In this document: in pieces, positions 22,809 through 25,772 of the stretch
Layout of the letters: each line of letters begins with the position of its first letter
Numbering within the stretch: the stretch's first letter is position 1
Assembly: GCA_902568465.1 (NCBI GenBank)
Contig: CACFQR010000006.1
Span: 1-64,000, forward strand
From: an uncultured Pelagibacteraceae bacterium
Lineage (GTDB): Bacteria; Pseudomonadota; Alphaproteobacteria; Pelagibacterales; Pelagibacteraceae
Reading direction: 5' to 3'
DNA: 64,000 nt
Translations under genes and position numbers: made by a program
Notes under the pieces: model-generated
Seen by the model: only the letters and a program-made list of their open reading frames with translations
Databases searched by the model: none
What the model was told of the DNA's origin: nothing

Positions 22809-23208
22809 GTAATTATATATTAATGTATTACTTTAAGTATTATAAAATATATAATAAAATCAACGACATAATTACATAACTTAAACTATATTATAATAAA
22901 GCCACATTAAAGCTAATATCATTAAATAAGCTAATAAAATCGCCATTTTTTGAATTACTAAACTCACTAGATAAAAAGTATAATCATATGATTAAAAAAG
23001 TGGCTAAAATAAAGGGAAATTTAAGTGAAAAATATAAAAAAATAGGATAAAAAAATTCATCATTTAAAAGGGTTGCAGTATAGGAATATAGCGATTAAAC
23101 GGCCATAGAAGGGGTGCATTTAACAAATTGCTGGTAAATGGTACAACTGGAAGCTGTATAATGCGATTTCAAAAAATAGGGGTCAAAATATTAATAAAAT
23201 AGCTTAAA
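22809..23208. other. 400-base stretch with no convincing gene
   Basis: Both strands are closed by frequent stops, and no tRNA fold or known riboswitch is evident. The left two thirds are extremely AT-rich. The right third (about 23070-23180) is less so and has no long frame. A weak hairpin (cattta...taaatg arms around 23117-23140) is present. A 21-codon minus-strand frame (22881-22946) encodes a hydrophobic peptide and is discussed as a finding. In an otherwise tightly packed sequence this looks like the decayed edge of inserted DNA. Confidence 0.6.
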
Positions 23209-23601
23209 TCAAGGCTTATTTGCGTATTTAGAGGTCATTTTTGCTGATCTTTTAGGTCCAACAAATAACAAAGTCCAGGCGCATTTCCCTTCAGGCATCT
23301 TAAGACTATGTCGATTGTTGTACCTTCGAAAGCCAATATAACCAGGTTTTCTCCAAAAAGTACCCTTTTCAGTCGTCTCCCAATAGCCTCCTTTAAGTAT
23401 TATAGTAATATATGACCAATAATGGTCGTGTAAGTCACCTAAATCGCTCTTTAGAAGCTTATGGATGAATATATTGAAGGGAAACCACTTAGGTCTGGTT
23501 CTAAAAAATGGGTAATATCGTATTACAAACGGTTCTGCAGCCCTATAATCAGGCCAACTTGGACCTCTGTCTAATATTATTCGTTTTCTATTAGCAAACA
23601 T
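23209..23601 (-). CDS. Cupin-like hypothetical protein
   Basis: A 130-residue protein whose centre reads LHDHYWSYITIILKGGYWE (about residues 56-74), followed by RKPGYIGFRRYNNRHSL and CAWTLLFVGPKRS. This is the layout of a small single-domain cupin: an HxH metal pair in the first cupin motif, GGYWE as its end, and a later His (NRHSL) for the second motif. Similar HDHPW-type cupins occur in phages and in bacteria, with no proven reaction that I know of. The sequence is richer in Trp, Arg and Pro than its neighbours, and the DNA looks less AT-rich, suggesting transfer. It is divergent from the tyrosine recombinase, with an 83-base gap. Confidence 0.65.
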   Translation of the reverse strand: MFANRKRIILDRGPSWPDYRAAEPFVIRYYPFFRTRPKWFPFNIFIHKLLKSDLGDLHDHYWSYITIILKGGYWETTEKGTFWRKPGYIGFRRYNNRHSLKMPEGKCAWTLLFVGPKRSAKMTSKYANKP

Positions 23602-23626
23602 GTTTATAGTAATTATAAATCATTAC

Positions 23627-23655
23627 TTGACATCTTCAAATAACTCTATTATAAC
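23627..23655 (+). promoter_or_regulatory. Consensus sigma-70-type promoter for the tyrosine recombinase
   Basis: TTGACA at 23627-23632 matches the -35 consensus at all six bases. TATAAC at 23650-23655 matches the -10 at five of six. The spacer is the ideal 17 bases. The predicted transcription start is near 23662, about 23 bases before the ATG at 23685 and inside the inverted repeat that follows. Confidence 0.75.
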
Positions 23656-23680
23656 TTCCGATAATTAATGGTTATCGGAA
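23656..23680. repeat. Perfect 9-bp inverted repeat between promoter and start codon of the recombinase
   Basis: Arms TTCCGATAA (23656-23664) and TTATCGGAA (23672-23680) are exact reverse complements around the spacer TTAATGG. It begins one base after the -10 hexamer, covers the predicted transcription start and ends 4 bases before the ATG. It could be an operator for a repressor or the recombinase itself, a recombinase core site, or an mRNA hairpin hiding the translation start. Sequence alone does not decide. Confidence 0.8.
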
Positions 23681-23684
23681 CATT

Positions 23685-24599
23685 ATGAATGAAATAGTAA
23701 CAGATGTAAAAAGTTTGGAATTAGAAACGTTACAGAACTTAAAAAGCTCTAAGGCTTTAAACACACTAAGAGCATATAAGGCTGACTATAAAGATTTTGC
23801 TGGTTTCTGCATTAAGAACGGTTTTAAACCAATGCCGTCTGAACCTAAAGTAATTACACTTTACTTAACTCACCTTTCAAAATCGAGCAAGTTTAGCACA
23901 CTGAAAAGGAGGTTGGCTTCTATAAGTGTTATTCATAAACTTTCAGGACATTATATAGATATAAAACATCCAATGATTACAGAAAACTTAATGGGTATAA
24001 AAAGAATATTAGGGAGCCATCAGAAAGCAAAAAAACCTATATTAATCAATGAGTTAAAGTTAATAATTAATGCAATTAATAAAGAAAAAAATGAGTCAAG
24101 TAAAATAAAAAACAAAGCATTAATACTTTTAGGTTTTGCAGGAGGTTTTAGAAGATCTGAATTAGTTTCAATAGATTATGAAGATGTAGAGTTAGTTCCT
24201 GAAGGAGTAAAAATATTTGTTAAAAGATCAAAAACAGACCAGTCAGGAGAAGGAATGACTAAGGGCATACCCTACTTTCCTAATACTGAATACTGTCCTG
24301 TGCTTGCATTAAAAGAATGGCTTAATAAATCAAAAATTAATTCAGGAAAGATATTCGACAATTCCGATAAAAATGTAGCTCTTACAATTAAAAAATACAC
24401 AGCACTCGCTGGACTAGATGCTAAAAAGTACTCAGGACATAGTCTTAGATCAGGTTTTGCTACAACAACAGCTGAACAGGGTGCGGAGGAAAGAAGTATA
24501 ATGGCTATGACTGGTCATAAAACTACCCAAATGGTACGAAGATACATTCAAGAAGCAAATTTATTTAAAAATAACGCTTTAAAAAATATTAAATTTTAG
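23685..24599 (+). CDS. Tyrosine recombinase / phage-type integrase
   Basis: A 304-residue site-specific recombinase. An N-terminal SAM-like core-binding domain (about residues 15-105) contains NTLRAYKADYKDFAGFC and STLKRRLASISVIHKLSG. The catalytic domain has the Arg in GGFRRSELVSID (near 156), Lys near KRSKTDQ, the HxxR box in SGHSLRSGFATT (near 250), the second His/Trp box in MTGHKTTQ, and the nucleophilic Tyr in VRRYIQEA (near 288). All catalytic residues appear intact. It resembles stand-alone integrases rather than XerC/XerD. A strong promoter and inverted repeat precede it. It converges with, and overlaps by 11 bases, a GIY-YIG gene. No flanking att repeats or phage structural genes are visible. 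Confidence 0.92.
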   Translation: MNEIVTDVKSLELETLQNLKSSKALNTLRAYKADYKDFAGFCIKNGFKPMPSEPKVITLYLTHLSKSSKFSTLKRRLASISVIHKLSGHYIDIKHPMITENLMGIKRILGSHQKAKKPILINELKLIINAINKEKNESSKIKNKALILLGFAGGFRRSELVSIDYEDVELVPEGVKIFVKRSKTDQSGEGMTKGIPYFPNTEYCPVLALKEWLNKSKINSGKIFDNSDKNVALTIKKYTALAGLDAKKYSGHSLRSGFATTTAEQGAEERSIMAMTGHKTTQMVRRYIQEANLFKNNALKNIKF

Positions 24600-24834
24600 A
24601 TTTTAATTTATTTCTAAATTTTTTATCTTTTTTTAAATAATACTCTCTCGACAAAGCTTTACTTTTTAAAAAAAATTTTTCTTTATAAAGAATTTTCCAT
24701 TTTCTTCCTCTGGTAGATTTAGCACCTTTGCTTGTATTATGTAAAAAGAGTCTTTTTTTTAAGTTATTTGTATAGCCTACATAAGTTTTTACTTTATTTT
24801 TTTTAATACTTCCTAATAAGTATACATAGTACAT
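24589..24834 (-). CDS. Small GIY-YIG domain protein (UPF0213-like)
   Basis: An 81-residue single-domain GIY-YIG protein. YYVYLLGS at residues 2-9 and TYVGYTNNLKKRLFLHN near 17-33 correspond to the GIY and YIG strands plus the conserved Arg helix. AKSTRGRKWKILYKE and KALSREYYLKK, with the catalytic-type Glu, follow. These small proteins are widespread, and the nuclease activity of most is unproven. The start at 24834 shares its last base with the stop region of the FAH-family gene upstream on the same strand, so it may be co-transcribed with that gene. Its 3' end overlaps the integrase gene. Confidence 0.88.
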   Translation of the reverse strand: MYYVYLLGSIKKNKVKTYVGYTNNLKKRLFLHNTSKGAKSTRGRKWKILYKEKFFLKSKALSREYYLKKDKKFRNKLKSKI

Positions 24835-25697: not shown

Positions 25698-25772
25698 TGG
25701 CGGTCCCACGGGGAATCGAACCCCGATTAGATGATTGAAAACCATCTGTCCTAACCGTTAGACGATGGGACC
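25698..25772 (-). tRNA. tRNA-Glu (anticodon UUC)
   Basis: A 75-base cloverleaf on the minus strand with CCA encoded at 25698-25700. Acceptor GGTCCCA pairs with TGGGACC. The anticodon stem-loop is GATGG TTTTCAA TCATC (anticodon TTC), and the T arm is CGGGG TTCGATT CCCCG. It sits 18 bases upstream of the FAH-family start codon, so the two may share a transcript. Confidence 0.96.

Follow-up and report, generated by a model that had tools for sequence, protein, structure and literature searches.

A Cre-like tyrosine recombinase and its adjacent 25-bp dyad: a candidate chromosome dimer resolution system in SAR11 bacteria

The window analysed here, a 64,000-nucleotide stretch of DNA from an uncultured member of the Pelagibacteraceae (SAR11), holds 69 non-overlapping open reading frames of at least 75 codons each and only one gap longer than 250 bp, the 400 bp at 22809-23208. 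The locus beside this gap comprises a cupin-like gene, a tyrosine recombinase and a small GIY-YIG domain protein (Table 1), with an EamA gene on one side, an FAH family gene on the other and no adjoining phage structural genes. This much agrees with a first-pass annotation of the window, which had reported a sole gap of more than 300 bases, a cupin-like gene of deviant composition, an intact tyrosine recombinase, a small GIY-YIG protein, transporter and FAH-family flanks, and an absence of phage structural genes. The recombinase reading frame is intact, its R/K/H-x-x-R/H/Y motifs span residues 154-287, and its GC content is ordinary when set against the window's 69 genes (z 0.77). The cupin-like gene, for which a Pfam search returned no match, stands at the top of these 69 genes in GC content (0.374, z 2.45), and the GIY-YIG gene at the bottom (0.199). 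Features overlooked in the earlier description are a 25-bp dyad, a turn in GC skew and a non-coding block inside the 400-bp gap.

Table 1. Features at the recombinase locus (positions in the 64,000-nucleotide window)
Feature	Position	Strand	Evidence
Conserved non-coding block, lying in the gap at 22809-23208	23060..23165 (core at 23094)	+	conservation in relatives
Cupin / cysteine-dioxygenase-like gene	23209..23601	-	PHROG 4786 'cysteine dioxygenase', E 5e-22
Likely recombinase promoter: TTGACA 23627-23632, 17 bp, TATAAC 23650-23655	23627..23655	+	conservation, by eye
Candidate dif-equivalent core site, TTCCGATAA-TTAATGG-TTATCGGAA, 25 bp	23656..23680	+	dyad, alignment, pattern scans
Cre-like tyrosine recombinase, 304 aa	23685..24599	+	PF00589, E 1.5e-20
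Small GIY-YIG domain protein	24589..24834	-	PF01541, E 5e-16

Comparison of the neighbourhood across relatives separates the recombinase from the genes beside it. The order EamA-cupin-recombinase is retained in most same-genus loci, the downstream side of the recombinase varies, and a GIY-YIG gene adjoins the recombinase in just two other loci, at 55-56% identity. After this comparison we dropped both genes as candidate parts of a system, and the earlier treatment of the three genes as one locus does not stand: the cupin gene is a conserved neighbour within the genus and the GIY-YIG gene a sporadic one, and we judge both to lie outside the recombinase system. Farther along, the FAH-family gene is immediately preceded by a tRNA-Glu gene (25698-25772, minus strand). 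The start assigned mechanically to the FAH-family frame, 25745, runs into the tRNA, so that 25679 is the likelier start of that gene.

A 25-bp dyad, its perfectly symmetric 9-bp arms set around an asymmetric 7-bp spacer (23665-23671), ends four bases short of the recombinase start codon. The first-pass annotation had seen no obvious att repeats here, and had thus passed over a site of recombination type that directly precedes the gene. The 64 kb contain no other match to it with three or fewer mismatches, and shuffled sequences average 0.03 matches. When gene starts were aligned with their upstream sequences, a dyad stood directly before the start codon in 23 of 23 relatives' loci. Two arm types occur in these aligned loci, TTCCGATAA/TTATCGGAA and TAACGATAA/TTATCAATA, and the spacer (TTAATGG, TTAATTG or TTAATAG) is retained even when the arms differ, so that it is less variable than the arms that surround it. 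The core pattern GATAATTAATNGTTATC was matched in 221 of 297 family genomes, once each, and the reversed pattern, used as a control, in none of the same 297; some of the 76 genomes that lack GATAATTAATNGTTATC carry variants and others are incomplete. The site of G066, for example, is a variant with the spacer TTTATTG. Among 24 sister-family genomes, the 18-bp site core was not found. Where the gene is present the site nearly always accompanies it (104 of 106 gene-bearing loci, these being 26 and 80 from two samples with some contigs in common).

The recombinase itself is widespread in the family and usually alone. Its own assembly (1.01 Mb, 80% complete) yielded no other PF00589 gene. A sample of 60 genomes includes 36 from its own family, many of which are incomplete, and 26 of the 36 have a strong match (E below 1e-30), with identities of 63-87% when its own genome is excluded. 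PF00589 matches were found in 110 of 147 Pelagibacteraceae genomes, mostly as a single protein of about 305-325 aa, and additional matches in family genomes are mostly longer, integrase-like frames. Either loss or an assembly gap may explain the six of 53 family genomes at least 90% complete that gave no PF00589 match, as well as the four of 64 family genomes in another sample (G033, G063, G195 and G199) that gave no match. What the family holds is a sole recombinase conserved by descent, as is characteristic of single-recombinase dimer resolution systems.

Several lines of evidence set this enzyme apart from XerC and XerD. Against the XerD model it scores 69.5 bits (cut-off 329.6) and against the XerC model 57.8 (cut-off 335.15). 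The sister family carries a single gene of each kind, XerC-like and XerD-like, whose full-length products score 244-258 and 306-326 bits on the XerD model, the latter themselves slightly under the curated cut-off, whereas SAR11 genes reach only about 58-87 bits; no gene in 64 sampled SAR11 genomes scored in the XerC/XerD range. Nor is a pair of partner enzymes, as in XerCD, to be seen: there is one PF00589 gene in the bacterium's own genome, and likewise in most matching family genomes. A tree of 66 rows, with three short rows left out, gathers the 13 SAR11 proteins in one clade (100/100), and a branch with the same support (100/100) parts the SAR11 side from the XerC and XerD proteins of Escherichia coli and the sister family. 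The SAR11 side also holds plasmid, viral and scattered alphaproteobacterial recombinases together with P1 Cre. On this side of the tree, support for the closest relative of SAR11 is poor (81/72); P1 Cre has a long branch, is placed among other alphaproteobacterial rows and is not the sister group of SAR11.

Structure-based comparisons point in the same direction. Profile matching to the PDB gave Cre at 49.8 bits over residues 26-291, XerD at 48.1 bits over the catalytic part only, XerA at 42 and XerH at 35. With a fold model of moderate quality (pLDDT 75, pTM 0.55), the top 29 Foldseek matches were all Cre chains, followed by XerA and XerH. The recombinase resembles Cre over the full length of its sequence and, on this moderate model, in its fold, and it belongs to the Cre superfamily without being Cre itself.

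Relatives outside SAR11 often bring a comparable site with them. A search of 72,556 plasmid records found recombinase relatives in 2,207, the best being 41-42% identical, and plasmid proteins named 'site-specific integrases' (Alicyclobacillus, Protochlamydia, Paenibacillus, Rickettsiales Ac37b, Methylobacterium) are 33-42% identical to the SAR11 enzyme. Within 300 bp upstream, a dyad with GATAA/TTATC inner arms was found for 5 of the 10 relatives on plasmids and for 9 of 25 rows from other Alphaproteobacteria, with at most 1 in 100 shuffles as good, and for all 13 SAR11 rows, with at most 2 in 100; the other five plasmid relatives have no convincing dyad in that interval, and no such dyad lies upstream of the 11 sister-family XerC/D rows. 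Six of seven viral rows also have an upstream dyad, these rows having been chosen by their arms. The dyads before plasmid and alphaproteobacterial relatives indicate that recombinase and upstream dyad form a wider plasmid/phage module, and recombinase with GATAA/TTATC-like dyad is apparently a widespread plasmid resolution module. Plasmids with the recombinase and a symmetric upstream dyad of this kind come from Bacillota, Chlamydiota and Alphaproteobacteria (L488, L490, L493, L494, L496).

The position of the locus on the chromosome bears directly on its possible function. Cumulative GC skew in the window peaks at 24514, less than 1 kb from the site; to the left of this turn coding bases lie mainly on the plus strand (15,486 versus 7,092 on the minus), and to the right mainly on the minus strand (30,555 versus 8,256 on the plus). 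For six complete genomes skew was calculated from 20 sampled stretches of 20 kb per genome, and in five of them (G082, G066, G030, G024 and G026) the estimated terminus lies 4-28 kb from the gene. In the sixth, G069, which carries both gene and site, a single outlying block moves the fitted terminus to a point 283 kb from the gene, although the sign change is local to the gene; for the six genomes together, G069 included, the combined probability is 7e-5. The pattern is that of one dif-like site at the terminus, found once each in 221 of 297 genomes and at the terminus in five of six complete genomes, with G069 discordant.

Two further elements lie upstream of the site. In most aligned loci the site follows a TTGACA-like element and a TAT-rich -10 region, and from this sequence conservation the segment whose right end abuts the left edge of the dyad is likely to be the recombinase promoter; a consensus promoter scan did not list 23627-23655 and found no excess. 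With the site placed after the likely promoter and ahead of the start codon, recombinase bound there would overlie the point at which its own transcription begins, and would probably limit its own synthesis. Inside the 400-bp gap is a gap-free conserved block, GAATATAGCGTTTAAACGGCCATAGAAGGGGT...ACAACTGAAGGGTGAA, situated 444-1303 bp upstream of the site in most relatives. It recurs in 77 of 104 relatives' site-bearing loci and in none of 120 sampled 20-kb stretches of six genomes. No consensus base pairs were found across 40 sequences of the block, no Rfam family scored above gathering, and no open frame is common to the relatives; a connection with the recombinase is only a possibility.

We propose that in SAR11 (Pelagibacteraceae) the recombinase and the 25-bp dyad resolve chromosome dimers, serving in place of XerCD/dif, and on the strength of these sequence comparisons we assign this reading a probability of about 0.85. 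One recombinase would bind both nearly identical arms as a homodimer. When a chromosome is dimeric, its two sites, one per sister, would come together near the terminus as the cell divides, and a single crossover across the 7-bp spacer would return monomers. FtsK with its gamma domain occurs in 46 of 60 relatives, including the bacterium's own genome, and septal activation is therefore possible. Recombinase bound at the site may in addition repress its own transcription. As to origin, the module probably descends from a plasmid- or phage-type Cre-superfamily resolvase with its own upstream site, which, once captured, would have replaced the XerC and XerD that the sister family still keeps.

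Other explanations would give the recombinase a different task. The first-pass annotation had considered the scar of a mobile element and a minimal mobile unit, and a recent mobile element, whether scar or minimal integrating unit, would accommodate the position of the cupin and GIY-YIG genes at the GC extremes of the window's 69 genes, the differences among relatives downstream of the recombinase and the family genomes without a PF00589 match. Such a reading, which we consider extremely improbable, is hard to reconcile with a gene and site conserved family-wide, one site per matching genome, with the ordinary GC content of the recombinase, with a position at the skew maximum, and with an EamA-cupin-recombinase order that is the same in most same-genus loci. 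Gene order in relatives had been proposed as the test of recent mobility, and there the recombinase and site recur in the same order; presence and absence with clean junctions among relatives, the mark of an integrative element, is not a property of this locus. The recombinase is intact yet not recently mobile. A third suggestion, a domesticated recombinase controlling a distant site, was right in spirit as to domestication, although the site proves to lie beside the gene. It is also very unlikely, in our estimation, that this is a chromosome-borne plasmid or phage resolvase kept for visiting elements and not for the chromosome. Its nearest relatives among the matches listed are indeed on plasmids and viral contigs, and pelagiphage relatives bear like sites, but the chromosome itself has the site, at the terminus and across the family, and no gene scoring as XerC or XerD was found in 64 family genomes.

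The dyad might instead be a mere operator through which the recombinase represses itself while doing another job, as its place between the likely promoter and the ATG would allow. An operator, however, would have no need of a conserved asymmetric 7-bp spacer, and here the spacer is less variable than the arms; site and gene stand at the skew terminus, and a second site is absent, as judged by GATAATTAATNGTTATC, from the 221 matching genomes. Autoregulation and recombination are moreover compatible, and we regard the operator-only explanation as unlikely. Tyrosine recombinases often drive inversion or phase-variation switches, and a DNA-inversion switch acting on the recombinase's own promoter could be imagined from the way in which the site adjoins that putative promoter. 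Inversion requires two sites, and with two sites in none of the 221 matching genomes and a single one in the window when three mismatches are allowed, a switch of this type is scarcely credible. Dimer resolution by the recombinase and its dyad remains our preferred reading: the locus is of interest not as a mobile unit but most likely as the system, descended from a plasmid resolvase, that SAR11 had seemed to lack for separating chromosome dimers.

Known systems share some features with the SAR11 locus and differ in others. The locus has in common with XerCD/dif a terminal site, short inverted arms and FtsK gamma, and differs in having one enzyme where XerCD has two, and a 7-bp spacer, the dif spacer of XerCD being 6 bp. 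Cre/loxP of phage P1 likewise combines one recombinase with symmetric arms and an asymmetric spacer, which in loxP is 8 bp as opposed to 7, and Cre is the best structural and profile match of the SAR11 recombinase. Cre resides on a plasmid prophage, however, whereas the SAR11 system is chromosomal and terminal, and Cre is 19-23% identical to those SAR11 rows to which BLAST aligned it. The plasmid 'site-specific integrases' have the same dyad type 32-269 bp upstream in five of ten cases but, unlike the SAR11 system, are plasmid-borne, with a spacer that varies by element. As described in an excerpt of PMC2409434, Cre/loxP keeps circular P1 monomeric. XerS/difSL and XerH/difH resemble the SAR11 system in their single recombinase and in a site near the gene, and differ in protein length, about 354-362 aa compared with 304 (PMC5357621, available portion); on the XerS model the SAR11 enzyme scores 42.5 bits (cut-off 267), and its profile match to XerH, 35 bits, is below that to Cre. 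XerL/dif of the Legionellales has a single recombinase, symmetric arms and a location near the GC-skew maximum. The accessible part of PMC9765430 describes perfect 10-bp symmetric arms, discovery of the system after the group had been reported to be without dif/Xer, and a catalytic tyrosine at residue 387, from which XerL is a longer protein than the SAR11 recombinase. By analogy with its published description, Legionella XerL/dif is the closest precedent for the arrangement proposed here.

Carnoy and Roten, in a 2009 survey, listed Pelagibacter ubique as without a dif/Xer system, and the accessible portion of that survey reports no evidence of Cre/loxP-like resolvases in dif/Xer-deficient proteobacteria (PMC2731167). 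The SAR11 locus would contradict the former claim, and it provides a candidate Cre/loxP-like resolvase in proteobacteria that had been called dif/Xer-deficient. A later classification, in the section available, held domestication of integrases for dimer resolution to be at odds with vertical Xer descent (PMC8138268); SAR11 offers a concrete candidate case in which a mobile-element integrase was domesticated for this purpose. Our search of the open-licence literature covered SAR11, Pelagibacter and pelagiphages as well as single-recombinase and plasmid systems, and found no earlier report of this system. The locus supplies a testable candidate dimer resolution site for a bacterial group that is among the most abundant.

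Sites of the same kind occur in pelagiphages. An exact IMG/VR scan for the site core gave 89 stretches, and 80 loci, mostly on partial contigs, were examined; within these, tblastn found no recombinase relative. Nucleotide similarity links 71 of the 80, and 61 include a large terminase gene (TerL), which the site precedes by 320-1161 bp. One of these terminases (L182) is 98.6% identical to that of the cultured Pelagibacter phage HTVC106P. Among the matches listed in an arm scan, spacers in HTVC106P relatives are mainly TTAAACG, TTAAATG, TTAATCG and TTAATTG; those of phages resemble the host's and are sometimes identical. At least one dyad is present in 60 of 61 non-redundant terminase loci, and a second, 28-32 bp away, in about 20 (any dyad in 189 of 1,220 shuffled sequences), counts that describe carriers and not the share of all pelagiphages, because the loci were found by the site. 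Type-B arms gave one match in a scan of viral contigs, since the second phage site varies. Site-bearing HTVC106P relatives were recorded at L157-L236, L344-L440 and L246:1510-1570. HTVC106P itself has an imperfect pair of sites at the expected place, read from the alignment and missed by the scan, and no integrase is annotated among the 70 features of its record. Its relatives, known mostly from partial contigs, have what marks an IMEX, or Xer-hijacking phage: a dif-like site without a recombinase of such type of their own.

A mobile element bearing a dif mimic has been described as a hijacker of XerL/dif (Nicholson et al., PMC9765430, excerpted text). A bolder and more tentative reading, to which we give less than even odds, is that SAR11 gave up an ancestral XerCD/dif and took over a Cre-like resolvase from a plasmid together with its site, in a natural counterpart of the laboratory replacement of dif by Cre/loxP, and that a pelagiphage lineage exploits this single host enzyme through its often double site beside the terminase, integrating at the terminus or resolving its own genomes. 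None of 297 family genomes has two GATAATTAATNGTTATC sites, as an integrated phage copy at the host dif might leave; TerL matches occur in 8 of 397 family genomes, at no more than 48% identity, and in two genomes compared by eye (G148 and G014) TerL is distant from the site. With no integrated copy found and an imperfect pair in HTVC106P, use of the host enzyme by phages is a lead and not a result, and a possible handle on the persistence of some SAR11 phages. Cultured HTVC010P-type phages were rejected as clear carriers: sites within three mismatches of one of the two arm types are present in 4 of 10 cultured-phage loci (HTVC010P, HTVC034P, HTVC100P and Lederberg). None of these sites is perfect, and 16 and 59 matches at up to four mismatches arise in 600 kb of host background as well. 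Further viral contigs (L383, L403, L368, L405, L406, L373, L384, L362, L359 and L382) carry arms identical to TTCCGATAA/TTATCGGAA around other spacers and, among the matches listed, have recombinases nearby that are 27-41% identical to the SAR11 enzyme.
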